Below, piece after piece: positions 4,523-22,113 of a DNA stretch of 47,370 bases. The stretch covers positions 1 to 47,370 of the forward strand of contig JAFQEE010000006.1 in assembly GCA_017399175.1 (NCBI GenBank), in the 5' to 3' direction. The first letter of the stretch is position 1, and every line of letters starts with the position of its first letter. The notes under the pieces were generated by a model. The model was not told the DNA's origin and did no database searches. It was given only the letters and a program-made list of their open reading frames with translations. This DNA comes from Clostridia bacterium. GTDB taxonomy: Bacteria; Bacillota; Clostridia; Oscillospirales; Acutalibacteraceae. Both the position numbers and the translations under genes were made by a program.

Positions 4523-6277
4523 TTATTTAACGCCTTTTACAGGAATAATCTCGCCCTTTGCGTTTTTGTCAACTGTGAATGTGATTTCATCACCTACATT
4601 AAGGATTACGATTTTTTCTGCATCCTTCACAGCAACCTTATAATACGCATTGTTGTCAGCGAGCTTGATATAGAAATAAGTTTCACCACCTGTGATGACA
4701 CTTCTGATTTCCTGAACCTTGCCTTTGACATCAACGGTTTCTTCCTTTGGTGCATCAGGAGTTTCTTCCTGACCCATTGAGTCAACATCAACATTAACAT
4801 TCACACCGTTTTTCTGGAGCTCTGCTGCGTAGTTTTCAGTACATTCTGCAAGATTTGAACCAACACCAACAAGAGTGGACTGTTCAACATTTACCATTGC
4901 ATACATCTTAACGAGTTCACTTGAGTCCTTAAGAGCCATAAAGTACGTTGGCTCACCGCTTACATTGAGAAGAATCGGGAATGTCGCACGGTAACCATAC
5001 TGCTGAACCTTACCCTGTGCAGATGTTCTTGCAGTTTCCTCGAGAGCACCTGCCTGTTTGTAATAAACAGCTTCCTTTGTTCTCTGGTTAATAAGAACGA
5101 AACCGATAATTGATTGGTCAGAACTGATTGAAGTTACGCCTGTGTACATATAAACGTCGTCATTAAGTGCAAGGTAATTTGAACCCTGACTTGTTACACG
5201 AACATTTTCCTGACCGATAATCGAGTTCCAGAAACCGTTGTTGTATTTTCCGTAGTAATTGTACTGCTGATTAACAATATTAACTGAATAAACCTGGTCA
5301 AGCCACTGGATTTCCTTATCTGTCACAAACTTGTCAGTAGGAAGCTTTGTGTTCTTATCAAGGCTTGTTGAAACGAGAGTTGTGTCACCATTGATTGAGT
5401 CAACAATAATAGCACCGATTACATCTGTACCGCCGAAAAGACCGATTGTCTTATCAAGAACAGGAACAATCCAATATGGTCTGCCTGTATCGTCAATTTC
5501 AAATGATGGGTCACCAAACATAAGTGACGGATACTTAAAACGAACATGACGGATAAGGTATTCGTTGAAATGCTCAGCAGGAGAATATTTCATACCTTCT
5601 TCTAAACGAACAGTTTCAGCCTTCTGTGTAGTCATATCAACGATAATGTATGCAGGAATACCCTCTTTTGTATTCTTGAGCCATTTGAAAATATCACCGT
5701 AATCAAGCGACTGAACACGAACAGGAGTACCCTTGTAGTTAATCTGTGTTGAATAATATGAATTCACAACAAACTGTGAAACATAATCAGAAAGTTCACC
5801 AAGAGCACGAGTTGCAATCATATTTGATGAGTCCTTGTCAAGACGAGGAACACTATTGAAATCAACTTCTGCAATTTCTTCTGCAAAATTACCTTCTTTG
5901 ACATCAATGAGTTCTGCGTAATCCTTTGCACGGAAGAACTCTGCACCTGTAAGATAACCCACAGCCACAACTGCAACAAGCACACCGATAAGGATAATCG
6001 GAATTTTAACCTTATTCTTTGCGTATTCCATATATTCAGGTCTGAAATATGCCTTTGAAAGCACACCAAAAATACCGATATATGAAACGAGAATAACACC
6101 AATGTAGATGTAAAGCTCCATTGCCTTGAAATTAAGTGCAGGAAGCATAAAGTAATATGCCACAGCACCTACAACGAGAGTAAGTAAAAGGCTCACAATA
6201 ACTCTTTTAACTGTACTGCCTTTCGGTGTTTCCGGCATAACGCTCTTGTTACCGAAATCAACATTAATTGGGTCCAT
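4523..6277 (-). CDS. Three-helix membrane protein with OB-fold-like C-terminus
   Basis: A 584-residue protein of unknown function. ATG 6277 follows AAAGAGGT at proper spacing; the 30 hydrophobic codons upstream are judged untranslated. Three membrane helices are visible at about residues 25-46, 53-74 and 93-112, followed by a large domain of about 400 residues, predicted outside, with many Tyr-rich strands (YSTQINYKGTPVRVQSLDYG). The last 70 residues (VDVKGKVQEIRSVITGG to the end) look like an OB-fold: strands, a YFYIKLADN segment, then GDEITFTVDK. The OB assignment is inference from pattern only. The gene is alone, with its own promoter at 6308-6337 and a terminator at 4484-4516. Confidence 0.75.
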   Translation of the reverse strand: MDPINVDFGNKSVMPETPKGSTVKRVIVSLLLTLVVGAVAYYFMLPALNFKAMELYIYIGVILVSYIGIFGVLSKAYFRPEYMEYAKNKVKIPIILIGVLVAVVAVGYLTGAEFFRAKDYAELIDVKEGNFAEEIAEVDFNSVPRLDKDSSNMIATRALGELSDYVSQFVVNSYYSTQINYKGTPVRVQSLDYGDIFKWLKNTKEGIPAYIIVDMTTQKAETVRLEEGMKYSPAEHFNEYLIRHVRFKYPSLMFGDPSFEIDDTGRPYWIVPVLDKTIGLFGGTDVIGAIIVDSINGDTTLVSTSLDKNTKLPTDKFVTDKEIQWLDQVYSVNIVNQQYNYYGKYNNGFWNSIIGQENVRVTSQGSNYLALNDDVYMYTGVTSISSDQSIIGFVLINQRTKEAVYYKQAGALEETARTSAQGKVQQYGYRATFPILLNVSGEPTYFMALKDSSELVKMYAMVNVEQSTLVGVGSNLAECTENYAAELQKNGVNVNVDVDSMGQEETPDAPKEETVDVKGKVQEIRSVITGGETYFYIKLADNNAYYKVAVKDAEKIVILNVGDEITFTVDKNAKGEIIPVKGVK

Positions 6278-6307
6278 AATTTTACCTCTTTTCCATATTA
6301 TGCTAAT

Positions 6308-6337
6308 AGTATAGCATAAAAGTAATATAAAATACAA
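6308..6337 (-). promoter_or_regulatory. Candidate promoter of the 4523-6277 gene
   Basis: On the - strand TTGTAT (6332-6337), 18 bases, TATACT (6308-6313), about 30 bases upstream of the start codon. Confidence 0.4.
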
Positions 6338-6475
6338 TATTAAAATACAAAACGCAAAATTTAACAACCGTCTTTATTAAATTGGAGGTTGTAGAGATAA
6401 ATGTAAAGTGGAAAATGGAAAGTGTAAAGTTTTAGAACTGCGTTGCAATTATAAATAAACCAATATGGTTGGAAT

Positions 6476-10344: not shown

Positions 10345-10480
10345 TACATCACTACCTCCATATTCCAAAATTACATTTTATACTTCCATCCATACACAGA
10401 TATTATGCCACAACTTTCATTTAATGTCAATGATTTCAAACAGGATATTTTTGGTTACAGCCACAATCCCTCAAAAACTC

Positions 10481-10509
10481 TTGAATTAAATAAGATAATA
10501 TGATAAAAT
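10481..10509 (+). promoter_or_regulatory. Promoter for the Lgt-like gene
   Basis: TTGAAT (10481-10486), 17 bases, TAAAAT (10504-10509), 26 bases before the start codon at 10536. Confidence 0.5.
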
Positions 10510-10535
10510 AACCTATAACAATCGAGGTGATTATT

Positions 10536-11393
10536 ATGCATCAGTTTTTTGGTGACTTGAACGCATTTGACTTATTTAATAATATTGCACTTTATGTAAC
10601 AATAATTTCAAGTATCTTTTTTGTAAAAGCAAAAACGCAAGCAATGGGACTTTATTCAAGATATGTCCTTTTCTATGTTTCAAAAAAAGGTTTACGTGCA
10701 AAAAAATTTCTTGAATATTTTCTTGCCTTTATAGAAATGTTTATACTGATGGCAATTTCTCTTATATCTGCATTCTTCAATGCACCGCTTGGCAACCTCT
10801 TAAATACAGGTGTAAATTATTTTGGTAATTTATTTAGTATCGCACCTCTTGTGTTTATTTTTTCGCTTATTATTATGGCTAACCCCATGAAGCAAATGGA
10901 TATTGTAACGCTCCTCTTGCCGATTCGTTTGTTTTTTGTAAAACTTGCTTGTTACTGTCAAGGATGCTGTTGGGGAATTTCATGGAAATATGGTCCACAC
11001 AATCATCATTATGACCATCCGGGAAATCAAGTTCCCGTGCAGGCAATTGAAGCATTTTGGGCAATAGCTATCCTTTTTTTCTTGCTTGTGTACAGAAAAA
11101 AAGCAAAGACAGGCACCCTATTTCCAATATATATGATTTTGTACAGCGGAACACGATTCTTTAGCGAGTTCTTCCGTAACGAAGAAAATGTGCTCTGGAT
11201 TTTTAAAACATATCATCTTCTTTGTCTTGTCGGTATTGCAATCGGACTTATAATGTTACTTATTGTTAAAATATTCGGCGAGAAAATTACTGAACATTTT
11301 GAAAATTCACACAGAAAACTCGACTTAAAAATCGCACAACACGAGGAACAAAAAGGCATGAGAACCCACTTAATCAGCAAAGGAAAAGCTTGA
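10536..11393 (+). CDS. Divergent prolipoprotein diacylglyceryl transferase-like membrane protein
   Basis: A 285-residue polytopic membrane protein related to Lgt, the enzyme that puts diacylglycerol on lipobox cysteines. ATG 10536 follows GAGGTG with a 6-base gap. About seven hydrophobic helices can be drawn. Lgt-family features are KLACYCQGCCWG, the PVQAIEAFWA segment, GTRFFSEFFRNE, and a final helix beginning TYHLLCLVGIAIG. The canonical HGRxGNF motif of catalytic Lgt is not visible, the N-terminal half is unlike classical Lgt, and a charged C-terminal tail of about 35 residues is added. It is therefore better called Lgt-like than lgt; activity is uncertain. Its neighbour on one side is a lipoprotein gene, which may be coincidence. 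Confidence 0.75.
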   Translation: MHQFFGDLNAFDLFNNIALYVTIISSIFFVKAKTQAMGLYSRYVLFYVSKKGLRAKKFLEYFLAFIEMFILMAISLISAFFNAPLGNLLNTGVNYFGNLFSIAPLVFIFSLIIMANPMKQMDIVTLLLPIRLFFVKLACYCQGCCWGISWKYGPHNHHYDHPGNQVPVQAIEAFWAIAILFFLLVYRKKAKTGTLFPIYMILYSGTRFFSEFFRNEENVLWIFKTYHLLCLVGIAIGLIMLLIVKIFGEKITEHFENSHRKLDLKIAQHEEQKGMRTHLISKGKA

Positions 11394-11454
11394 AAAAGCA
11401 GAAAAAGTTAAACTCGTGTGAGCAAAAACAAGAAAAAACAACTAAAACTACAGC

Positions 11455-11491
11455 AAAATACCGAAGAACCGTTTAAAGGTCTTCGGTATTT
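11455..11491. terminator. Bidirectional terminator between the Lgt-like gene and the NRPS
   Basis: ATACCGAAGA (11458-11467) pairs with TCTTCGGTAT (11480-11489), with A-run and T-run flanks on opposite sides. It ends the + gene and the long - operon that converge here. Confidence 0.75.
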
Positions 11492-11494
11492 TTA

Positions 11495-14400
11495 TTATTC
11501 AAAAATCTTAACAAGAATGTCTACAAGAATGTCGCTATTATCTGATTGGAAATAGTGCGAATCTGTTTCAATAAAGTGAACATTGTTGAAATTGTCCGCA
11601 TTTAGTTTCCACAATTTTTCAGCATTCTTATAATTTTTTGTGAAGCTGTCAGTCTTACTGATAATAACATCGGTCTGCGCCTTGATTTTATTAGGTTTGT
11701 TGTAATGGTACCATACCATAAAGTCAGTATCTTTACGGAAATTGTCAATCATTTCGCAATTTTGACTGTCAGAGAAATTATCTAGAGGTGCACCTGCCGA
11801 AATCAACCGTTTCTTGATATATTTATCAGGAACTATGTTCCAAACATTTTTCTTTAGCGGTTTATGTGGAGGGATATACCCGCCTGCCACATAGCGACAG
11901 ATATCAACATTCATTTCTTCAAGAATATTGATAATTTGCATAGCAACTGCAGCACCTGCACAATGAGAATAAATATATAACTTCTTGTCTTTTCCGATTT
12001 GAGCAAGTGTTTCAGCAATGTTTTTACACTCATCAAATGAACGCAGATACTTAACATAATATATCGCCATATCATTTGACCTGTTTGCCATAGATTCTAC
12101 AAATTTCGCATAAGCGGTAGCGTCGCCACCTGCATACGGCACTACAACAAGCACTTTTTCTGCATCTGGTACATCTCTCAACACTTCTATCCCTTCGGTC
12201 AAAGAAACATTACCCTCTGTAAGAATCTCTGTCAACTTTTTCGGCGTTGGATTTGCAATAAACTGTGCAGGAGTAATATTCTTCATTTCACTTTCCGACA
12301 ACACAGCAATCATATCAATACTTGTACCGCCAAGAGAGAAGAAACTTTCATTTCTGCCAACTTCTTCAATATTAAGTGTTCTCTCAAAGATACTGCAAAG
12401 CATTTTTTCTGTGTCATTTATCGGTATTTCCTTGACAAATTCGTCCTCAAAAACAACTTCTATACTTTTAAGTTGTTTACGGTCAAGTTTACCGCTTGCA
12501 TTGAGCGGCATTTTGTCAAGTATTACAAATGCACTCGGCACCATATAGCGAGGAAGTTTGTTACCGCAGTATTCTTTAATCTTTGTATTGTCAATATTAT
12601 CTCCACAACAATATGCAACAAGAACATCTTTGCCGTTGTTTTGCATAATCATAACAACCACAGATTCCACGTTATCAACTTCACCGATAACTTTTTCAAT
12701 TTCACCTAATTCAATTCTTTGACCGTTAAGTTTAATCTGATGGTCCATTCTGCCACAGAAGATGATTTCTCCATCTTCTCTCCAGTATGCCAAATCGCCT
12801 GTTTTGTAGATTTTGCCTTCGCGGAATGGGTTGTCTATGAACTTTTCGTTTGTGAGAATTTCGTTATTAAGATAACCTTGTCCTACATTAACACCACCAA
12901 TACAAAGTTCACCCACTACTCCTATCGGTGTTGGGTTCATATATCTGTCAACTATGTAAAGCTGTGTATTGTATATTGGTTTACCAATAGGCACAGGGTC
13001 TGTGTCTGTTGGTACGCAAGGATAGTAACTTACATCAACTGCACACTCTGTCGGTCCGTAAAGGTTATGCAACTGCACCTTATTGTAATCATATATCTTA
13101 TAGAATCTGTTAATATGATTTGCTGTTAATGCTTCACCTGAAAGGAACACATACTTAACCGTGTTGAATTTGCTTTGTTCTTCAGGGTTGTTTTCAAGAT
13201 AAGTCAGAAACAAATCAAATACAGACGGAACAAAGTGCAAATGTGTTACCTTGTTCTTTTCTGTTTCTTCAAGGATTTTTGCAGGTAAGAAATGTTCATC
13301 AGGCTTTGATGCACAAAGTGTTCTTCCTGTCATACCCCACCAGAAAAGCTCCCATACTGATACATCAAATGTATATGGTGTTTTCTGGAGAATTACATCA
13401 TTTTCTTCCAACGGATAGAAATCATGCATCCACAGTATTCTGTTTACTGCAGACTTATGACTAATTTTTGCTCCCTTTGGATTTCCTGTGCTACCTGATG
13501 TGTAGATTACATATGCTGTATCTTCAAGCTTTGCAAGTATTTCTTTTGTTTCTATTGTTTCTTTGTTTTTCAGAACTTCTGTTGCATCAATACAAGGAAC
13601 ATCTCCTGCAAGATGGCAGAATTTATCCTGTGCTATTACTGCTTTTGCATTACTGTTCTCTAATATGTAATCTATTCTGTCTTGCGGATAATTCGGGTCA
13701 ATAGGTAAGTATGCATTACCGCCACGAATAACACCATAAACAGCACCATACATTTCAAAGCTTCTCTCACAGATTACTGCGATTACACTCTTTTCACCCT
13801 TAGTAATATCTCTTGTTCGAGCATCTATTCTTTCTGCATATTTCTTAAACTCTTTAAATGTGATTTCCTCGTCATTTGCTATGATACATACTTTATCCTT
13901 ATTCTTTTCTGCTTGTTCTTCAAACAGACTGTAGATTGTTGAATTATTAGGTATGTCATATGTATATGCTGTATCGTTGAAATCTTTGAAAACCTTATTC
14001 TTTTCCTCTTCTGTCAGGACAGAGATGTCTTTTATGAGAATGTTTTCATCAAGACATTGTGTAAGAATTGAATTGTATGATTTAATAAACTTGTTGATTG
14101 TTTCCTCCTTAAAGATATCTGTACAGTACTCTGTCATAAGCACAATTTCTTTTTCTCTCGGAAACACATAGAAAGACAAATCACACTTTGATGTAGTTAC
14201 AGGTGTCGGAATAACCTCTGCTTTCTTATCTCCAATTGTGATTTCTGTCATTTCTTCACTCTGGTATGCGAACATAACATCATACAATGGATTTCCGTTT
14301 TTTGTGTGTATATTCAGTTTATTTACAAGTTCCGAGAACGGATATTGCTGATTAGCTATTGCAGATATTGAGTTTTCCTTAACTTCATTTGCAAATTCTT

Positions 14401-17400
14401 TAAATATCTTTGTTCCGACAGGATAGTTTCGGAGTGCTATTGTATTTACAAACATACCCATTGTATTAAGATACTTGCTGCTTCGTCCGCTTACAGGCAT
14501 TCCTACACAGATATCTTCATTTCCTGAAAACTTTGAAAGAAGAATATTGTAACATGCCATGTAATATGCATAAGGAGTTATACCCAACTGTTTACACTTG
14601 CCCTGTATCTTCTCATTAAGTTCATTATCTATTCTTGTATAGATATTTGTTCCCTTGAAACTCTGTGTTTCCGGTCTTTGGTAATCTGTTAGTAATTCAA
14701 GTGTTTCAATTTCTTCATTAAAGACATTTAACCAATACTTCTCATTTTCATCAGTATATGTATCTGTTACTGCAAATTCACCGTACTGAACTGTTGGTTT
14801 AAGCTCTCTGCCCATATACAACTCATTTAGTTCTCTCATGAAAATTGCAGATGATGAACCATCAGCTATAATATGGTGCATATCTATCATAACTGTATTT
14901 TCAATATATCCGACTCTTAACAATGGTACTTTTGTAAGGTCAAACGGTTTAATAAAATCCTTTGCATTTTCACTTTCAAGTTTTCGTACCTGTATTGTTG
15001 CTTCTTCGTTAATTACCTGTACTACTTGTCCGTTTCTGTTTTCAAAATGTGTTCTTAAACTTTCGTGTTTTTCAATTAGTTTATTGATTGCTTTTTCAAG
15101 TCTTTCTACATCAAGCTCTTCTGTCTTAAAAATATATGAAATATTGTAAAGGGTTGAGTTTCCGTCTATCTTCTGGGCTGTATACACATTCATCTGTGCT
15201 GATGTTGCAGGAATAACAGAATCATAAATAACTTTTTCTTCTTTTTCTGTTTTTTCCTGAAGTTTCTTTGCTAAACTTTGAATGTCTGTTGCTTCAAAGA
15301 TATCTCTTACATTTACTGTGTAACCATTTTCTTCTATCTTATTTGTCAGTTCTATTGACTTTAACGAATCTCCACCCATATCAAAGAAATTGTCAATCAC
15401 ACTAACCTTCTCTGTGTTAAGCACTTCTTTTATTGCTTCTATGAGGACGTTTTCTTCTCTTGTTTCTGGTGCTACATATTCTGCTTCTGCAGAGATATTT
15501 GTTAAATCAATTTCAGGTAATGCTTTTCTGTCAAGCTTACCACTGACTGTCATTGGTAAAGTTTCAAGATGTGTAAAAACATGCGGAACCATATATCTTG
15601 GTAATGTTGATGAGAGTATTGTTCTGAGTTCCCTTGTATCAATTTCTTTACCTGTATAGAAGGCACAGATATATTGTCTGTCATTTTCGTCCTGACGAAC
15701 AATCGCAACAGCATGTTCTACTTCGTCAATTGCCTCTAATACACTTTCAATTTCACCGAGTTCTATTCGAAGTCCACGAACCTTAACCTGGAAGTCATTT
15801 CTTCCCACGTAACAGATATTTCCGTCAGGTCTCCAATATGCAAGGTCACCTGTTTTATAAAGTTTACCTTCGCCAAATGGATTTTCTATAAATCTTTCTG
15901 CTGTAAGCTCAGGATTATTGATATATCCCGAGCCTACACCATCACCTGCAATACAGATTTCTCCTGTTACACCAATCGGAGTTGGATTTAAATATCTGTC
16001 CACAATATAGATTTGTGCATTAGCAATAGGTTTGCCGATATGAACATCAAGACCATCAGATTTTTCTAATCGACCACCCATATCCCAAACACTACATTCA
16101 CTTGGTCCTATAGGGTTGTACACCATTGTATCGGGTGATTTTGTGTACATCTGTTCAAGAAGTTCAGGAGTTAAAGGCTCACCTGATGTACAAATACAAG
16201 CCATATTTTTCAATGCTGAACAATTATGCTTGTCACTAAAATAAATTTTAAGACGAGTTGGGGTTGTCATAATAACATTTATGTTATTTTTGGTGACAAC
16301 ATCTAAAAAGCGGTCTTGCATAGTGCTTTCATTATCATCTAAAACAACAGTTGTAAATCCGTTTGTTAACGGCAAGAGCGTTTCTGCAATAAAATAGTCA
16401 AATGAAGCACTGTTTACACATGCAAAAATAGGTTGTTCTATGTAATTCAATGTTTCAAGTGTGTTGTTATTCATACAGAAATTCAAGAGGCCTTTTCCTG
16501 TAAGAAGACAACCCTTTGGCATCCCTGTACTACCGGAAGTATAAATAATATAGCAATCCCCTAAATTTGTAACTGTTTCAGCCGCTTTTGTTGACGATAC
16601 TGAATTAAAATCATTTAAAAGAATAACATTAGCATTAACAGAAGATTTGTCTAACTCATCAGTAATTAACAGTTTAACATCACAATTGATGCACATTTGC
16701 TGAATGCGGTCAACAGGATATCTTTTATCAACAGGTAAGAATATTGCACCAATTTTCAATATTGCTAATTGAAAAACAATTAATTCATAGCTTCTTTCAA
16801 GATGTACGGCAACAACATCGTCAGCCTTGAGACCGAGCGAATTTAACCTGTCGGCACATTCTTTTATTTTGTCATTCAGTTGAGAATATGTCAGTTTGAT
16901 ATCTTTAAATATGACCGCAGTTTTATCAGGTGTTTTCACAACTTGATTTTCAAAAAGTTCGTAAACACCTTTATCTTTTGGATATTCAACAGTTGTATTG
17001 TTGAAATCATAAAGTATTTTCTGCTTTTCTTCTGCTGAAACCATTTCAAGCTCATATATGGTTTTTTCAGGATTTTCAATAGCATTTTCTGCTAAAGCAA
17101 TTATTGAGTTCAGCATTGTCTGAACTTCTTGTTCACTAAACATTGCTGTTCTGTAACGGATTTTGAGGTTATGCTTCTCGTTATTAAAACTCTGCAAATG
17201 AATTTCTAACGGTGTTGAAAGTGCGTCGCTGTATTGAAAAACGAATTCATAATTATCATTTTTATTGAATTCCTGATAATCGCACACAATATCAAAAAGA
17301 GAATTGATTTTTACAACATTCTCATTTAACATTTCCTTAATATCGGTTTGCGTAAACTTTTGATGTCTATATAAGTTTAACTGCAAATCTTCGAATTGTT

Positions 17401-18280
17401 TTGCAGTTTCTATAAACGTGTCCGATGTAATATTTACAATCAAAGGCAAAACATGCATATATAATCCGATAGTGTTAAGTTCTGCCGCTGTTGTACGGTT
17501 AAACACGGGCATACCGATGGTAAAATTATTAACTTCATATTTACGCCATATATATATGCCGTAAACAGTATTAAAAAAGGCATTAAGTGAAATATCGTTT
17601 TTATCGCAAAACTCTGAAGCCTTAACAAAAGTTTCGCGAGAGATTTCACGATTCACTTCGGATGATGTATAATCAAATTCTGCTCTATCTTTTGAAATGA
17701 CAGAACAAATAGGTTCTGTTAAGAATTGTTCTTCCCAGAACTTTTTATCACGATTATAACGATTGCTGGCTTTATAGGTTTTTTCGGCTTTTATATAATC
17801 TTCATATGACTGAATTTTTTCAGGAATATAAGGTCTGCCGTTCAAATAATTATCAAAGAAATCAGCCATGACCTGTGTGCTGAAACCATCAATTATTATG
17901 TGGTGGGCACAAATTATAAAACCTGATTTTTTAGGTGTTTGAAAAATTACACACTTAAATAAAATATCATTGGTGTCAAGCGGTTTGTTAACAAAAGTCT
18001 GTGTAAACTTTTGCAGGGCATCTTCTGACTCGAACTGTAGGAAAGGATAATCTGTAAATTTATATTCATCTATATATGAACAAATTTTTCCGTTTTCTTT
18101 ATTTATTCTTAATCTAAGGTTTTCAAATGTTTGAATTAATCTGTTAAAGGCGTCATTCAATTCTTCATAATTATACTTCTTATTAAAACAATCAATTACT
18201 CCTTGATTCCAAATAGAATATTCAGATGTGATTTTTGTTTCATAAAAGCTTTTTTGTTGAGAGTTTAACTCAAAATTCAT
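11495..18280 (-). CDS. Two-module non-ribosomal peptide synthetase, C-A-T-C-A-T-TE
   Basis: A 2261-residue NRPS. ATG 18280 has AAAGGAGG upstream (the six codons before it contain the ribosome site). Domains in order: C1 with HHIIIDG near residue 126; A1 with YTSGSTGMPKG near 580 and NPIGPSE near 720; T1 with GGDSL near 970; C2 with HHIIADG near 1134; A2 with YTSGSTGNPKG near 1592, FDVSVWE near 1637 and NLYGPTE near 1738; T2 with GGTSI near 1986; TE from VVVPYAGGDATAY near 2043. Read by eye against GrsA, A2 gives DVWHFSLVDK, which equals the EntF serine code as I recall it. A1 gives about DYAMCSPVWK, which I cannot match. The TE resembles type II thioesterases but reads SHCAG, so Cys2107 replaces the usual Ser; His2242 fits the catalytic His. 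An N-terminal C domain plus the upstream AMP ligase and ACP suggests N-acylation of residue X, then Ser. No E, MT or reductase domain. The product is unknown. Confidence 0.95.
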   Translation of the reverse strand: MNFELNSQQKSFYETKITSEYSIWNQGVIDCFNKKYNYEELNDAFNRLIQTFENLRLRINKENGKICSYIDEYKFTDYPFLQFESEDALQKFTQTFVNKPLDTNDILFKCVIFQTPKKSGFIICAHHIIIDGFSTQVMADFFDNYLNGRPYIPEKIQSYEDYIKAEKTYKASNRYNRDKKFWEEQFLTEPICSVISKDRAEFDYTSSEVNREISRETFVKASEFCDKNDISLNAFFNTVYGIYIWRKYEVNNFTIGMPVFNRTTAAELNTIGLYMHVLPLIVNITSDTFIETAKQFEDLQLNLYRHQKFTQTDIKEMLNENVVKINSLFDIVCDYQEFNKNDNYEFVFQYSDALSTPLEIHLQSFNNEKHNLKIRYRTAMFSEQEVQTMLNSIIALAENAIENPEKTIYELEMVSAEEKQKILYDFNNTTVEYPKDKGVYELFENQVVKTPDKTAVIFKDIKLTYSQLNDKIKECADRLNSLGLKADDVVAVHLERSYELIVFQLAILKIGAIFLPVDKRYPVDRIQQMCINCDVKLLITDELDKSSVNANVILLNDFNSVSSTKAAETVTNLGDCYIIYTSGSTGMPKGCLLTGKGLLNFCMNNNTLETLNYIEQPIFACVNSASFDYFIAETLLPLTNGFTTVVLDDNESTMQDRFLDVVTKNNINVIMTTPTRLKIYFSDKHNCSALKNMACICTSGEPLTPELLEQMYTKSPDTMVYNPIGPSECSVWDMGGRLEKSDGLDVHIGKPIANAQIYIVDRYLNPTPIGVTGEICIAGDGVGSGYINNPELTAERFIENPFGEGKLYKTGDLAYWRPDGNICYVGRNDFQVKVRGLRIELGEIESVLEAIDEVEHAVAIVRQDENDRQYICAFYTGKEIDTRELRTILSSTLPRYMVPHVFTHLETLPMTVSGKLDRKALPEIDLTNISAEAEYVAPETREENVLIEAIKEVLNTEKVSVIDNFFDMGGDSLKSIELTNKIEENGYTVNVRDIFEATDIQSLAKKLQEKTEKEEKVIYDSVIPATSAQMNVYTAQKIDGNSTLYNISYIFKTEELDVERLEKAINKLIEKHESLRTHFENRNGQVVQVINEEATIQVRKLESENAKDFIKPFDLTKVPLLRVGYIENTVMIDMHHIIADGSSSAIFMRELNELYMGRELKPTVQYGEFAVTDTYTDENEKYWLNVFNEEIETLELLTDYQRPETQSFKGTNIYTRIDNELNEKIQGKCKQLGITPYAYYMACYNILLSKFSGNEDICVGMPVSGRSSKYLNTMGMFVNTIALRNYPVGTKIFKEFANEVKENSISAIANQQYPFSELVNKLNIHTKNGNPLYDVMFAYQSEEMTEITIGDKKAEVIPTPVTTSKCDLSFYVFPREKEIVLMTEYCTDIFKEETINKFIKSYNSILTQCLDENILIKDISVLTEEEKNKVFKDFNDTAYTYDIPNNSTIYSLFEEQAEKNKDKVCIIANDEEITFKEFKKYAERIDARTRDITKGEKSVIAVICERSFEMYGAVYGVIRGGNAYLPIDPNYPQDRIDYILENSNAKAVIAQDKFCHLAGDVPCIDATEVLKNKETIETKEILAKLEDTAYVIYTSGSTGNPKGAKISHKSAVNRILWMHDFYPLEENDVILQKTPYTFDVSVWELFWWGMTGRTLCASKPDEHFLPAKILEETEKNKVTHLHFVPSVFDLFLTYLENNPEEQSKFNTVKYVFLSGEALTANHINRFYKIYDYNKVQLHNLYGPTECAVDVSYYPCVPTDTDPVPIGKPIYNTQLYIVDRYMNPTPIGVVGELCIGGVNVGQGYLNNEILTNEKFIDNPFREGKIYKTGDLAYWREDGEIIFCGRMDHQIKLNGQRIELGEIEKVIGEVDNVESVVVMIMQNNGKDVLVAYCCGDNIDNTKIKEYCGNKLPRYMVPSAFVILDKMPLNASGKLDRKQLKSIEVVFEDEFVKEIPINDTEKMLCSIFERTLNIEEVGRNESFFSLGGTSIDMIAVLSESEMKNITPAQFIANPTPKKLTEILTEGNVSLTEGIEVLRDVPDAEKVLVVVPYAGGDATAYAKFVESMANRSNDMAIYYVKYLRSFDECKNIAETLAQIGKDKKLYIYSHCAGAAVAMQIINILEEMNVDICRYVAGGYIPPHKPLKKNVWNIVPDKYIKKRLISAGAPLDNFSDSQNCEMIDNFRKDTDFMVWYHYNKPNKIKAQTDVIISKTDSFTKNYKNAEKLWKLNADNFNNVHFIETDSHYFQSDNSDILVDILVKIFE

Positions 18281-18326
18281 ACAGATTCCTCCTTTCAAAA
18301 TATTTTAGGAACGGTGCCACAAATTA

Positions 18327-18989
18327 TTATTTAATCTCATAAGGTGCATCTTTTAAGCTAACTTTACAACCTCTACCTTCTGATATTTGACGGCAAAAAA
18401 AGTTAAAAAGTCTGTTAAATTTTTTTGCTTCATTTTCAGATAAGTATTCAGGTTTGTTAAAGTCAATCGCTTGTTTATAAAAGAAATTGCCATTTTGCTT
18501 TACAAATAAACTCCCCATCTCTTTGTAACTGTCAAGAACGGATTGCCAGCTTTGGTCAATAGCAAAACGCACGTTTATTCCATAACTTAAAATACCGTTA
18601 AAATTGCTATTCAAAAATTTCGAAATAGTTTTTAAAAAATTTTCGCAATATATTCGCTGACAAGCTTCCGGGAAGCCACTTTGTATAATAAAAGAAATGT
18701 TGCGTTTGACTGAATATTTTTGTTCCTTTGAAACATCAGAATAAAGTTCCTCTAAAAACTCCATAAAATAACCCGGAATAGTAGCGGCAAAAACAGGAAG
18801 AGCAAATACAATATTTTCATTATTTAAAAATGCAAGCTTTGATTTTTCCCAATGAGTTTTTTGTGATAAGTGATATGTTTCAACAGTTGAATTTTCTTCG
18901 ATAACCCCTTGCTGAAACGCTTCAATTACTTGTGCAGTATTACTTGCAGAAACGGTATGAGGCGATGCGTTTATAATTATGAAATGCAT
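18327..18989 (-). CDS. Flavodoxin-like NAD(P)H/FMN oxidoreductase in the NRPS operon
   Basis: A 220-residue cytoplasmic protein of the flavodoxin/NADPH-dependent FMN reductase fold. The N-terminal strand and phosphate loop (FIIINASPHTVSASNT) match the FMN-binding loop type SPxxxSxSNT. A second flavin-side segment is FALPVFAATIPGYFMEFLEE. The C-terminal third is basic and aromatic and I do not recognise it. ATG 18989 has GAGGAGGT upstream and lies inside the 3' end of the preceding gene (13-base overlap), so translational coupling is likely. The NRPS follows 46 bases downstream. Its substrate may be the acyl chain, residue X or the released peptide; the sequence does not say which. Confidence 0.8.
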   Translation of the reverse strand: MHFIIINASPHTVSASNTAQVIEAFQQGVIEENSTVETYHLSQKTHWEKSKLAFLNNENIVFALPVFAATIPGYFMEFLEELYSDVSKEQKYSVKRNISFIIQSGFPEACQRIYCENFLKTISKFLNSNFNGILSYGINVRFAIDQSWQSVLDSYKEMGSLFVKQNGNFFYKQAIDFNKPEYLSENEAKKFNRLFNFFCRQISEGRGCKVSLKDAPYEIK

Positions 18990-19489
18990 TTATTTACCTC
19001 CTCAATATTATTAATAGAAAAAACTCCAATGGGAATGCTACTGAAATGCTCAGCATATTTTTCAAACCACTTGGTTAGTACTTCTTCATTTGCACTACCC
19101 TTATATAACAAAGCCAATCTTAATGTCAGGTCATATCTTGGAATATGAAGAATTTTACCATTCTCAAAAGCAGAGAATACCGTAACAAGAGGGAACATTC
19201 TTTGAATAATATTTATTGTTTTATGGTTTATAAAATCGAATGAAGTATCTGAAATGAAAACAATGGTATCATAATTAAAAAGAGAGGCGAAGATTTCTTT
19301 GTAATCATCATTAAGAAGACATTTACCCGGAGTGTCAAGCATACAAGTACAACAACCCGTACAATGCGAAATGTTAAGTTCAGAGGTATTTATGATTTTA
19401 TATTTCTCTGCATTTTCTGTTAACTTTTCTATAGCGTTTTGTGTTTCCGCATCATTTTCCAATGATGTGTTAATAATTAATAAGCTCAT
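18977..19489 (-). CDS. Cysteine-cluster flavodoxin-like protein in the NRPS operon
   Basis: A 170-residue flavodoxin-fold protein of the iron-sulfur flavoprotein/NADPH-dependent FMN reductase group. The signature HCTGCCTCMLDTPGKC places Cys at residues 43, 46, 47, 49 and 57, followed by LLNDD, as in family members with a CxGCxxC...GKCxxxDD pattern. The N-terminal strand ends in NTSLENDAETQN, a degenerate phosphate loop that has lost the usual SxR/SxSN pattern, so FMN binding is less certain than in its neighbour. ATG 19489 has AAGGAGG 5 bases upstream. It overlaps the next flavodoxin-like gene by 13 bases, and the two may form one heteromeric enzyme (inference). Confidence 0.78.
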   Translation of the reverse strand: MSLLIINTSLENDAETQNAIEKLTENAEKYKIINTSELNISHCTGCCTCMLDTPGKCLLNDDYKEIFASLFNYDTIVFISDTSFDFINHKTINIIQRMFPLVTVFSAFENGKILHIPRYDLTLRLALLYKGSANEEVLTKWFEKYAEHFSSIPIGVFSINNIEEVNKCIS

Positions 19490-19523
19490 AAAATCCTCCT
19501 TCTTTTGTTATGTGTTTTTAGAG

Positions 19524-19748
19524 TTAGCCGATAATCTTTTTAAGATAATCCACTACATTTTTTACAGACTTGAAGCTCTTTAAATCCTTGTTGGAGATTT
19601 CAATGTCAAATTCATCCTCAATCGCACATATTAACTGCACAAGACCTAATGATGAAAGTTCTAAATCCTTGAGTTTCATCTGTGGGTCTAATTTTATATC
19701 CTCGCGACCTGAAATTCCGTTATATAATTCTTGAAGTTTTTCAAACAT
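19524..19748 (-). CDS. Stand-alone acyl carrier protein
   Basis: A 74-residue acidic helical carrier protein. The phosphopantetheine site is LELSSLGLVQL; Ser33 aligns with the modified serine, and the usual preceding Asp of the DSL motif is Ser32. The length and the DLKSFKSVKNVVDYLKKII end are typical of ACPs. It lies 14 bases after the AMP-ligase gene and 34 bases before the flavodoxin pair, so it most likely accepts the acyl group made by that ligase and presents it to the first condensation domain of the NRPS. No phosphopantetheinyl transferase is encoded in the window, so a housekeeping enzyme must modify it. Confidence 0.9.
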   Translation of the reverse strand: MFEKLQELYNGISGREDIKLDPQMKLKDLELSSLGLVQLICAIEDEFDIEISNKDLKSFKSVKNVVDYLKKIIG

Positions 19749-19762
19749 ATTCTATTTCTCCT

Positions 19763-21466
19763 TTAAGCATTAATTTCTTTTTCTAATGATAAATAATCAA
19801 CCTTACCCATATTTGTAACAGGTATTTCATCACGGAAAATTATTTCGTGCGGTAACGAATACTCTGCAAGATTATTTTTACAGCATTCCATTATCTTTGA
19901 TTTTACAAGCTCTTTGTCGGCATCCTTATTATTAAGCACAACAAATGCACCGATTTTCTGACCGTAAATTCTGTCGTTGATACCTACAACACAGCATTGT
20001 GCAACAGCAGGACATGTGCAAACTGCATCTTCAACCTGAGTAGCATAGACATTATATCCACCACTGATAAGAATTCGTGAGTTTCTTTGACGGAAGTAAA
20101 TGTATCCATCATCGTCCATTGAAAACGTATCTCCTGTATGAAGCCAGATTTTACCATCAGCGTGTCGTTGAAGTGATTTTGCTGTTGCTTCTTCGTTTTT
20201 GTAGTAGCCTTTCATAACAATAGGACCTGAAACGCAAAGTTCACCATCTTCACCGTTTGGTAATTCTTCTTGTGTATCAGGTTTAACAATTTTAAAGTAA
20301 ACATCGGGATATGCAATGCCGGCACTACCGATTCTTATATCAAAATCCGGGTTAATTGAACAGCCTGCTACACACTCTGTTTGTCCATAGGCTTCTCGTA
20401 ATGCAACACTTGCCCCACCTTTTTTAAGAAGCTTGTTTACTCTGTGCTGAAGTTTTTCGGGTAATTTATCACCACCACACACAAGAAGCTCCATAAACGA
20501 AAGGTCATCAGTATCAATTTTCGGGTATCTAATCAATGCTTCATACAATCCCGGAACACCGTAAATGCAGTTGATTTTCTTCTTAAAAATCAGTTTACTG
20601 CATTCTTGGAAATCGTATTTTGGTAAAAGAAATACATGAAATCCCAAACACAACATAGCGTGTACGCAAATCACAAGACCAAATCCGTGGAAAAGCGGCA
20701 TAACCGCCAATGACTTTTTACCCACAACTTCTTCAATACCGCCGATGTCATAAGTGTGCATCGCAAGGCTGTTGATGTTCATATTGGTAATCATAACACC
20801 CTTTGGTGTACCTGATGTACCGCCACTGTAAAGAATAACTGCTGTATCGTCAGCTTGTCCGTCATCTTTTGGCATCTTTGGATTTTGCTCTTTACCGAGT
20901 TTTATTAAGTCGTTCCAATAGATTACATCATGTTCCGGATTGAAATTAAGACTTAACTTGTTTTGTGAAGCATACACAGGCTTTGCATAAAGTGGTAATG
21001 CATCAACAATTCTTGCTAAAATCATTTTAGGCTCTTTTGAAGTATTCCATTTGATTTTTGCAAATTTTGGATAAATCATATCAAGTGTGAGAATTGCCAC
21101 ACTGTCCGTATCTTCAATAAATTTCTGAATTTCTGCTGCAGAAAGTAATGGGTGAATCATATTAGCAATCGCACCAATTCGATTAACTGCATATATCATA
21201 AAAAGTGCTTGAGGAGTGTTTGGAGTAACAACGGAAACAGTATCGCCCTTTTTTACACCAATTGCCACAAGTGATTTTGCAACCTTTTCAATGTTTTCTA
21301 TAAGCTTTTTGTATGTATATTTTTTTCCTTGAAATTCAACTGCAGTGAGATTAGGATATCGCTCAGCGCCCTTGCGCAAATGCTCATACATTGAATATTC
21401 AGGGTATTCAGGAATCCATTTTTCAGGATTTTGATGCTCATACCAAATGCTTTTTTCTCGTTTCAT
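19763..21466 (-). CDS. Acyl-AMP/acyl-CoA ligase of the NRPS operon
   Basis: A 567-residue class I adenylate-forming enzyme, first gene of the NRPS operon. The ATP loop reads ILYSGGTSGTPKGVM, then EAYGQTE, the LHTGD motif, and a C-terminal subdomain ending in VTNMGKVDYLSLE, where the Lys in GK is the catalytic lysine position. The overall look (HPLLSAAEIQKFIEDTD, GFGLVICVHAMLCLG) is that of long-chain acyl-CoA synthetases, not of the aryl-AMP ligase EntE. The immediate neighbour is an ACP, so loading of a fatty or related carboxylic acid onto that ACP is inferred. ATG 21466 is used; a TTG further up overlaps the GAGGAG ribosome site, whose spacing from ATG is long (about 12 bases). Confidence 0.88.
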   Translation of the reverse strand: MKREKSIWYEHQNPEKWIPEYPEYSMYEHLRKGAERYPNLTAVEFQGKKYTYKKLIENIEKVAKSLVAIGVKKGDTVSVVTPNTPQALFMIYAVNRIGAIANMIHPLLSAAEIQKFIEDTDSVAILTLDMIYPKFAKIKWNTSKEPKMILARIVDALPLYAKPVYASQNKLSLNFNPEHDVIYWNDLIKLGKEQNPKMPKDDGQADDTAVILYSGGTSGTPKGVMITNMNINSLAMHTYDIGGIEEVVGKKSLAVMPLFHGFGLVICVHAMLCLGFHVFLLPKYDFQECSKLIFKKKINCIYGVPGLYEALIRYPKIDTDDLSFMELLVCGGDKLPEKLQHRVNKLLKKGGASVALREAYGQTECVAGCSINPDFDIRIGSAGIAYPDVYFKIVKPDTQEELPNGEDGELCVSGPIVMKGYYKNEEATAKSLQRHADGKIWLHTGDTFSMDDDGYIYFRQRNSRILISGGYNVYATQVEDAVCTCPAVAQCCVVGINDRIYGQKIGAFVVLNNKDADKELVKSKIMECCKNNLAEYSLPHEIIFRDEIPVTNMGKVDYLSLEKEINA

Positions 21467-21514
21467 TATATTGTGTTCACTCCTCAAAAATAATCGTAAA
21501 TTTATATATAATAA

Positions 21515-21543
21515 ATTATATCACAAGCACTATCTTTTTTCAA
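21515..21543 (-). promoter_or_regulatory. Near-consensus promoter of the NRPS operon
   Basis: On the - strand TTGAAA (21538-21543), 17 bases, TATAAT (21515-21520), about 50 bases before the AMP-ligase start. No other good promoter is seen inside the operon, so the five genes are probably one transcript ending at 11455-11491. Confidence 0.65.
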
Positions 21544-21600
21544 GTTTTAGAAAAGATAAATAGTTGGCAATACACTTAAACTTTAAAACCAAACCATCTC

Positions 21601-21629
21601 TTGCCTTTGATAAAATGATATGATATAAT
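21601..21629 (+). promoter_or_regulatory. Promoter of panD
   Basis: TTGCCT (21601-21606), 17 bases, TATAAT (21624-21629), 30 bases before the panD ATG at 21659. Confidence 0.55.
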
Positions 21630-21658
21630 ATTTATTATTTTATTAACGTGGTATTAAA

Positions 21659-22042
21659 ATGTATATTACTATGTTATAAAGTAAAATTCATCGTGCGACA
21701 GTCACTCAATCAGATTTGAATTATGTTGGTAGCATTACAATCGACAAAGCATTGATGGATGCTGCCGGGTTACTTGAATACGAAAAAGTGCAGATAGCCG
21801 ATATTGATAACGGCAACAGATTTGAAACTTACATAATTGCCGGTGAAGAAAACAGCGGTTGCATTTGTCTTAACGGTGCTGCAGCAAAATGTGTTGAGGT
21901 AGGCGACAAGGTCATAATTATGGCATATGCCCATATGACACCTGAGGAAAACAAAGACCATTATCCAAAGGTTGTTTTTGTTAATGATAAAAACGAAATT
22001 ACTGAAGTTGCAAATTACGAAAAACACGGTGAAATAAAATAA
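21659..22042 (+). pseudogene. panD: Aspartate 1-decarboxylase with in-frame stop
   Basis: PanD makes beta-alanine from aspartate for pantothenate and CoA, using a pyruvoyl group formed by self-cleavage at Gly-Ser. From ATG 21659 the frame reads MYITML, then TAA at 21677-21679, then [20 protein letters not shown] and the rest of a normal PanD to 22042. The stop stands where the family has Lys (AAA in MLKSKIHR), so one A-to-T change explains it. The cleavage site YVGS, the essential Lys of SKIHR and the C-terminal half ([15 protein letters not shown]) are otherwise intact. Restart at TTG 21716 would lose SKIHR and leave only four residues before the cleavage site. Promoter and terminator are intact, which points to a recent mutation or a sequence error. 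Confidence 0.85.
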
Positions 22043-22049
22043 CACAATT

Positions 22050-22084
22050 AAAAGACAGTTGTATTATACAGCTGTCTTTTTAAG
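22050..22084 (+). terminator. Intrinsic terminator of panD
   Basis: AAAGACAGTTGT pairs with ACAGCTGTCTTT (one G-T mismatch) around a short loop, followed by TTAAG after a T-run. Confidence 0.75.
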
Positions 22085-22113
22085 TTGCTTTTTATGACAA
22101 TTTGTGGTATTAT
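22085..22113 (+). promoter_or_regulatory. Promoter of ahcY
   Basis: TTGCTT (22085-22090), 17 bases, TATTAT (22108-22113), 35 bases before the ahcY ATG. Confidence 0.45.

Follow-up and report, generated by a model that had tools for sequence, protein, structure and literature searches.

A cysteine-type thioesterase in a nonribosomal peptide synthetase island of gut Clostridia and its candidate N-acyl-X-serine beta-lactone product

What molecule leaves the nonribosomal peptide synthetase (NRPS) encoded on contig JAFQEE010000006.1 of a Clostridia bacterium (assembly GCA_017399175.1)? The stretch analysed, 47,370 nucleotides, is called the window hereafter. The NRPS gene (11495–18280, minus strand) is an open reading frame (ORF) of 2261 codons with the domain order C-A-T-C-A-T-TE (condensation, adenylation, thiolation, and thioesterase domains). 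Pfam gives two Condensation, two AMP-binding, and two PP-binding stretches, in agreement with an earlier sequence-only reading of this DNA, and a Thioesterase match of 22.0 bits, under the 26.4 cut-off. The same reading had proposed an N-acyl dipeptide-type product. This proposal has to be revised, since the catalytic triad of the thioesterase (TE) matches those of TEs that form four-membered rings. By analogy with them, the likeliest product would be an N-acyl-X-serine beta-lactone, not the plain dipeptide acid. Our confidence in this structure is about half, because we infer the chemistry and because some Cys-TEs of the same kind follow other residues.

The thioesterase and the residue it receives

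The TE domain (11513–12151, minus strand) carries, by alignment, a triad of the ObiF/SulM type. The nucleophile is Cys2107 (codon 11962–11960), accompanied by Gly2134 (11881–11879) at position I, Asp2211 (11650–11648) at position II, and His2242 (11557–11555). In the alignment they correspond to Cys1146, Gly1173, Asp1254, and His1284 in ObiF1, whose chain numbering runs 20 higher. A TE profile detects seven TEs in six of the 398 genomes from the same family, and all seven have SHC[AV]G in place of the classical GHSxG. In the 12 Cys-TEs aligned (the seven family TEs and five from the class, out of 13 found in genomes; L183 of genome G738, with 110 residues only, was excluded), the Cys, the position-II Asp, and the His are invariant, and position I is never Asp. 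In the accessible text of PMC11298585, no structurally characterised NRPS TEs other than ObiF1 and SulM, which both form four-membered rings, are said to have Asp at position II; AB3403, which is uncharacterised, has Cys with Asp at position I. The available part of PMC6668435 reports that changes in the ObiF1 triad reduce the product and that the Cys-to-Ser change yields hydrolysis.

In a search of the PDB with the profile of the seven family TEs, ObiF1 is placed first (3.8e-11) and the SulM TE third (3.7e-7), and type I Ser-TEs, those of surfactin and fengycin among them, fail to reach E 0.1. A broader Cys-TE profile again places ObiF1 first (1.7e-30) and SulM third, with fengycin (2.6e-8) and surfactin SrfA-C (2e-6) matched far lower down.

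The residue delivered to the TE should also be noted. The A2 domain (12464–13924, minus strand) has the code DVWHFSLVDK, which reads as Ser, and the terminal code is Ser, DVWHFS(L/F)VDK, before all seven family TEs. This assignment, and that of the Gly-like A1 codes of the relatives described below, depends on the code positions and reference codes assumed here. Two modules with Ser as the last residue, as in the sequence-only reading, are thus recovered from both the Pfam layout and the A2 code. Outside the family, Ser is the residue before the Cys-TEs of genomes G501 and G418, and Thr is the one before the Cys-TEs of G772 and a Caballeronia plasmid. Ser or Thr codes precede 11 of the 14 Cys-TEs with a readable terminal code and occur in 1 of 12 other A domains of these loci and clusters (Fisher p 0.0005, kinship ignored). 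Three loci were left out of this count: L183, L232 (where no A motif was found), and L236 (where the A domain lies beyond the stretch). The G418 code (L200), legible at six of 10 positions within a broken frame, was taken as Ser. Twelve plasmid records have a TE match, and the six examined comprise four Cys-type and two Ser-type TEs. The Ser-type matches, short stand-alone proteins at 10 of 16 places besides the window and at two of the six plasmid loci, are uncounted.

Several observations weigh against this reading. The Cys-TEs of G739, G628, and Embleya follow A domains reading neither Ser nor Thr, and outside the family the difference (4/7 versus 0/4) is not significant (p 0.11). The seven family TEs and their Ser modules have a common descent, so that they amount to approximately one event. 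In either profile search the Ser-type TE 6vap outranks SulM. Other type II TEs with a Ser nucleophile, surfactin TEII and RifR, also match the profiles, and these too have Asp at position II. Position II by itself consequently proves nothing, and it is the combination of Cys with the position-II Asp that counts. When the TE sequence is searched singly, ObiF1 is not favoured (E 0.25, fifth of seven hits). The window TE has no aligned equivalent of Arg1190, a residue that aids transfer in ObiF1, and the MbtH-like domain of ObiF1 has no counterpart: a genome that is 96.9% complete gave no match to PF03621. The MbtH-like domain is a feature of ObiF1, not of beta-lactone chemistry.

Other Cys-TE loci were encountered in these searches. 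The TEs at L197 and L198 (G739 and G628) have GQCVG, follow DLTKxAxVSK A domains, and lie near glycosyltransferase-like genes. In G501 (L199), a single-module C-A(Ser)-T-Cys-TE NRPS stands beside two ketosynthase-like genes and a 77-residue ORF (domains judged by eye), a layout that looks suited to on-site assembly of the acyl chain. The Staphylococcus epidermidis plasmid NZ_CP070059.1 (L236) encodes an annotated phosphopantetheine-binding protein whose TE-like part has GHCAG, next to an annotated serine hydroxymethyltransferase gene and an NRPS; by analogy with obafluorin, L236 may be another beta-lactone system.

Proposed pathway and rival products

The acyl group would be supplied by two proteins encoded upstream of the NRPS. 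The AMP-forming ligase (19763–21466, minus strand, 567 residues) has Pfam AMP-binding and C-terminal domain matches; its nearest curated models are long-chain fatty-acid ligases, with scores below their cut-offs. The free acyl carrier protein (ACP; 19524–19748, minus strand, 74 residues) has a PP-binding match. The C1 domain (approximately 17006–18280, minus strand), which has the motif HHIIIDG, is presumed to be an acyl-accepting starter domain; its PDB matches are weak (best, bacitracin synthase 3, 1.1e-14). Ligase and ACP genes are present at all five TE loci whose contig passes the NRPS start (the window, G320, G076, G224, and contig 35 of G261, where the ligase is of another type and 26% identical). 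This result, together with the fitting architecture, supports the earlier suggestion that a ligase/ACP pair feeds the first C domain. Acyl loading appears to resemble that of the gut Clostridia fatty-acid-amide clusters (OaaA, OaaACP, and OaaC), in which acyl groups are loaded through a ligase and an ACP, as described in the available portion of PMC13142362. A second locus of acyl-amide type in the window genome (L003, G000:C11:84509-87999), an AMP ligase gene followed directly by one for a stand-alone C domain with HHLAMDA, is reminiscent of those clusters.

Judging from its family and the gut fatty-acid-amide systems, the ligase would activate a fatty acid and load it onto the free ACP, and C1 would couple the acyl chain with residue X on T1. 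From the domain order and the Ser code, C2 would then add Ser on T2. The N-acyl-X-Ser chain would be taken onto Cys2107 of the TE, and attack of the Ser hydroxyl on this thioester, as the ObiF1-type triad and the terminal Ser suggest, would give the N-acyl-X-serine beta-lactone. The flavoproteins may add a redox step, most likely on the acyl-ACP, and the Lgt-like membrane protein may act on, move, or protect the product at the membrane.

Concerning X, the code of the window A1 domain (approximately 15506–16963, minus strand) is DYAMCSPVWK. The A1 domains of G320, G190, and G224 are Gly-like (DITQ.GI.WK), so that their products would at the least contain acyl-Gly-Ser. We considered beta-alanine supplied by panD as X and found it unsupported: G190 and G224 share the Gly-like code of G320 and lack a match to panD, and that code is also unlike the one in the window.

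The Lgt-like protein (PF01790; 10527–11393, plus strand, 288 residues) is encoded convergently with the NRPS. It had been missed in the sequence-only reading, and so had panD, at the opposite end of the island, and the nucleophilic Cys of the TE. At the site of GRWGNFTNQEAFG in this genome's canonical Lgt, encoded at C50:26546, the Lgt-like protein carries KLACYCQGCCWG. The canonical GNFxN is missing in this protein and five aligned relatives, which have a Cys-rich motif instead, making canonical Lgt chemistry doubtful. An Lgt-like gene occurs at all seven family TE loci, the other six being 32–47% identical to that in the window, either beside the NRPS or behind the ligase and ACP (directly behind them in G076, L082). 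In G224 (L195:6331-8562), one fusion protein combines the Lgt-like domain with an MFS transporter, which may hint that the product is exported or worked on at the membrane. The earlier remark that an exporter is lacking therefore does not extend to the family. Lgt-like paralogues with a GCC motif are found on other contigs as well. The association with the TE loci is observed, and a role in acting on, moving, or protecting the product is probable. We found no prior report of an Lgt-like membrane protein as an NRPS partner in the literature searched.

These observations bear on three other products. If the Cys-TE merely hydrolysed its chain, a linear N-acyl-X-Ser lipodipeptide would result, whose Ser hydroxyl the Lgt-like protein may decorate. 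The invariably terminal Ser and the Gly-like A1 domains of G320, G190, and G224 are compatible with such an acid, as is the lack of a dedicated exporter in the island of the window. Porphyromonas gingivalis has lipids of the acyl-Gly-Ser kind, and some of them carry phosphoglycerol, probably attached through the hydroxyl of Ser, according to the accessible text of PMC10757044. However, a Cys nucleophile is unnecessary for hydrolysis, which ObiF1 performs after its Cys is changed to Ser (PMC6668435, available part), and the nearest solved TE by profile is a beta-lactone enzyme. We regard the linear acid as rather unlikely.

A membrane lipid conjugate, in which the TE or the Lgt-like protein joins acyl-X-Ser to a glycerolipid and no molecule is released, is improbable in our view. 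The presence of the Lgt-like gene at every family TE locus, its position directly behind the ligase and ACP in G076, and the MFS fusion in G224 speak for it. Canonical Lgt acts on phosphatidylglycerol, which would suit this reaction, but the loss of GNFxN in the Lgt-like protein and its five relatives and the GCC-motif paralogues on other contigs speak against it. Least credible is a cyclic depsipeptide, with the ring closed by the TE at an acyl-chain hydroxyl. TEs commonly catalyse macrocyclisation, yet the chain has two residues only, Pfam scans of the seven island genes give no hydroxylase or ketoreductase, and in G076 the same TE stands after one module, leaving very little to cyclise; we give this ring scarcely any weight. 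The preferred reading is still the beta-lactone, and the single-module NRPS of G076 would give its simplest form, an N-acyl-serine beta-lactone.

The island, its relatives, and its accessory genes

The genes discussed above belong to an island of 11.7 kb (10369–22084, no strand) that comprises seven genes, for the Lgt-like protein, the NRPS, two flavoproteins, the ACP, the ligase, and PanD. It is flanked on the left by a DUF4474 gene starting at 10368 and on the right by ahcY starting at 22085. These two genes adjoin each other in four of five congeners, where the spacing between matched parts is 0.48–0.55 kb, most of it the first third of the DUF4474 gene, which is unmatched; identities in the four are 41–43% for the DUF4474 gene and 70–78% for ahcY. 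The flanks lie on separate contigs in the fifth congener, G327, which is therefore uninformative on insertion. The GC content is 0.341 in the island and 0.380 elsewhere in the window. PF01790 counts agree with an insertion: besides its canonical copy, the window genome has a second one in the island, while each of the five congeners has one. The "five-gene operon" of the sequence-only reading is accordingly too narrow a unit: in the four congeners with adjoining flanks, the Lgt-like gene and panD are absent from between them as well, and because the flanking genes are neighbours there, we take the 11.7-kb island as the unit.

The five ORFs of that reading are all present on the minus strand, and the recomputed gaps of 14, 34, −13, and 46 bases are identical. 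A plausible ribosome site precedes each of the five genes (judged by eye). The near-consensus promoter it reported is indeed present as a site (21515–21543, minus strand; TTGAAA-17-TATAAT, with TG before the −10 element) matching the consensus at 11 of 12 positions. Such sites are no commoner than chance (46 observed versus 52.0 expected in the region), so that what supports a promoter here is the position of the site. The terminator reported at the operon end is borne out by a hairpin between the NRPS and Lgt-like genes (11450–11495), with −18.5 kcal/mol and z −5.1 against shuffles on one strand and −18.9 and z −5.8 on the opposite strand. It was detected by folding against shuffles and is absent from the pattern-scan list. 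Since it is stable on both strands, it may serve both convergent genes.

The panD (aspartate 1-decarboxylase) reading frame (21671–22042, plus strand) has an in-frame TAA as its third codon, where G320 has Lys; a later start is possible at 21716. Among the 11 genomes tested, panD was found in two, the window genome and G320, beside this ligase in both. The TAA means either that the gene is broken, that it starts late or in an unusual way, or that the assembly is wrong at this point. Elsewhere in the window, a protein of 614 residues (4526–6367, minus strand) has no Pfam match at 0.001.

We searched for relatives of the ligase in the 398 family genomes and 391 genomes of the class. Such genome searches score some candidates per genome (three for the ligase), and absences consequently rest on those candidates. 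Ligases with at least 53% identity were found in five other family genomes, G261, G320, G076, G190, and G224, and all five adjoin a homologous NRPS; among the ligase matches listed for the class genomes, none exceeds 45%. In G261 the gene order is as in the window, flavoproteins included, and the NRPS is interrupted by the contig end. A second G261 contig ends in a non-overlapping second half of an NRPS, which begins within an E-domain-like part, and we infer that the two pieces belong together. In G320, G076, G190, and G224, the ligase and ACP genes are divergent from the NRPS, and the flavoproteins were not found in the stretches fetched. G190 has two NRPS copies, 83% identical in their overlap, each ending at a contig edge, and in G076 the TE follows a single module. 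In a contig scan, the best 80 of 589 matches include one at 74% identity, from a metagenome-assembled genome of goat cecum (RGIG1689); the other 79 have at most 42%. An earlier contig scan for named homologues found none. The cluster is real and, as the sequence-only reading held, without a characterised match in the resources searched, which did not include MIBiG or antiSMASH. The refuting outcome which that reading had named, homologous NRPSs that routinely lack the four upstream genes, is observed for the two flavoproteins, which occur in the clusters of two of the six related genomes, and is not observed for the ligase and ACP.

The flavoproteins are accessory. We rejected them as part of a conserved core, since besides these two clusters they occur elsewhere as stand-alone pairs. 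Flavoprotein 2 (18327–18989, minus strand) has a Flavodoxin_2 match of 23.1 bits, under the cut-off of 27, and an SNT motif near the N-terminus that is kept in all six aligned sequences. Flavoprotein 1 (18977–19489, minus strand) is FMN_red-like at best: it has no Pfam match at 0.001 and a sub-threshold FMN_red match (E 0.0071), which is weak and found in one of five members. Its CX2CX2CX7C motif is kept in all five, and a PDB match to 'Cd1' (1.2e-7) covers the region of this motif. Iron-sulfur flavoproteins (Isf) have CX2CX2CX4-7C in a flavodoxin fold. Flavoprotein 1 matches at 0.001 occur in 123 of 300 genomes, mostly short and weak; strong ones (E <1e-37) occur in five other genomes, and flavoprotein 2 adjoins in all five, suggesting a heterodimer. 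Only one of these five, G261, has the ligase, ACP, and NRPS; the next match, G259, is a weak pair without the cluster genes. Among the stand-alone pairs, a MerR gene precedes the pair in L035 and L036, and an ABC ATPase gene follows in L036 and L039, itself followed by a protein with a weak ABC2-permease match in L039 and by one without a match in L036. These neighbours suggest that the pair may be recruited from a stress or efflux setting. The flavoprotein 1 copy of G191 (L039) is broken by TAG. The window and G261 clusters have ligases 75% and ACPs 66% identical, versus 53–56% and 34–47% for the other clusters, and their A1 codes are unlike. Sharing the closest ligases and ACPs, not the A1 code, suggests that the flavoproteins act on the acyl-ACP.

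Comparison with known systems

Beyond the window, we propose more tentatively that this island family of gut Clostridia makes N-acyl(-aminoacyl)-serine beta-lactones, natural counterparts of the synthetic ones that acylate cysteine amidases, human NAAA for instance, with an Lgt-like partner. N-Cbz-serine beta-lactone S-acylates human NAAA (PMC3432061, available part), and gut fatty-acid amides act on host receptors, as the accessible text of PMC13142362 states. If the proposal is true, gut bacteria produce a reactive group already employed by chemists to target cysteine hydrolases of hosts and viruses, and, more speculatively, an acyl-serine beta-lactone made with the same loading logic as the fatty-acid amides could block the breakdown of these lipids. 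The constant Lgt-like partner raises the separate question of NRPS products meeting membrane lipids. Within the literature searched, we found neither this cluster nor a natural NRPS for serine beta-lactones described earlier.

The best curated NRPS model for the window NRPS is that of the aureusimine NRPS AusA (NF047350), which is likewise a two-module enzyme; the score, 1172.9 bits, is far under the cut-off of 2500. AusA has no N-terminal C domain and ends in a reductase. The Oaa clusters of gut Clostridia similarly use a stand-alone ligase and a free ACP to feed a C domain. Theirs is a free C domain, often with DHxxxDS, and free amines are used, whereas C1 of the window lies within a two-module NRPS that has HHxxxDG and a TE. 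The acyl-Gly-Ser expected from the relatives with Gly-like A1 domains is like the N-acyl-glycyl-serine lipids (lipid 654 type) of Bacteroidota, though the available part of PMC10757044 gives those no link to an NRPS, a Cys-TE, or a lactone.

The TE of SulM (sulfazecin, 8w2c) shares the Cys nucleophile and the position-II Asp. A SulM-type beta-lactam was rejected on three published criteria, namely motif, terminal residue, and sulfotransferase. The motif is Gln-Cys-Asn in the SulM type (PMC11298585, accessible text). The window TE has His-Cys-Ala, the terminal code is Ser, not 2,3-diaminopropionate, and Pfam scans of the seven island genes give no sulfotransferase. The closest counterpart is ObiF1, the obafluorin NRPS TE (6n8e), with which the window TE has in common the Cys nucleophile, the position-I Gly, the position-II Asp, the His, and a beta-hydroxy residue in the last position. 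This residue is beta-hydroxy-homophenylalanine in ObiF1 and Ser here, where, unlike in ObiF1, the acyl group would be loaded by a ligase and an ACP and an Lgt-like protein accompanies the NRPS.

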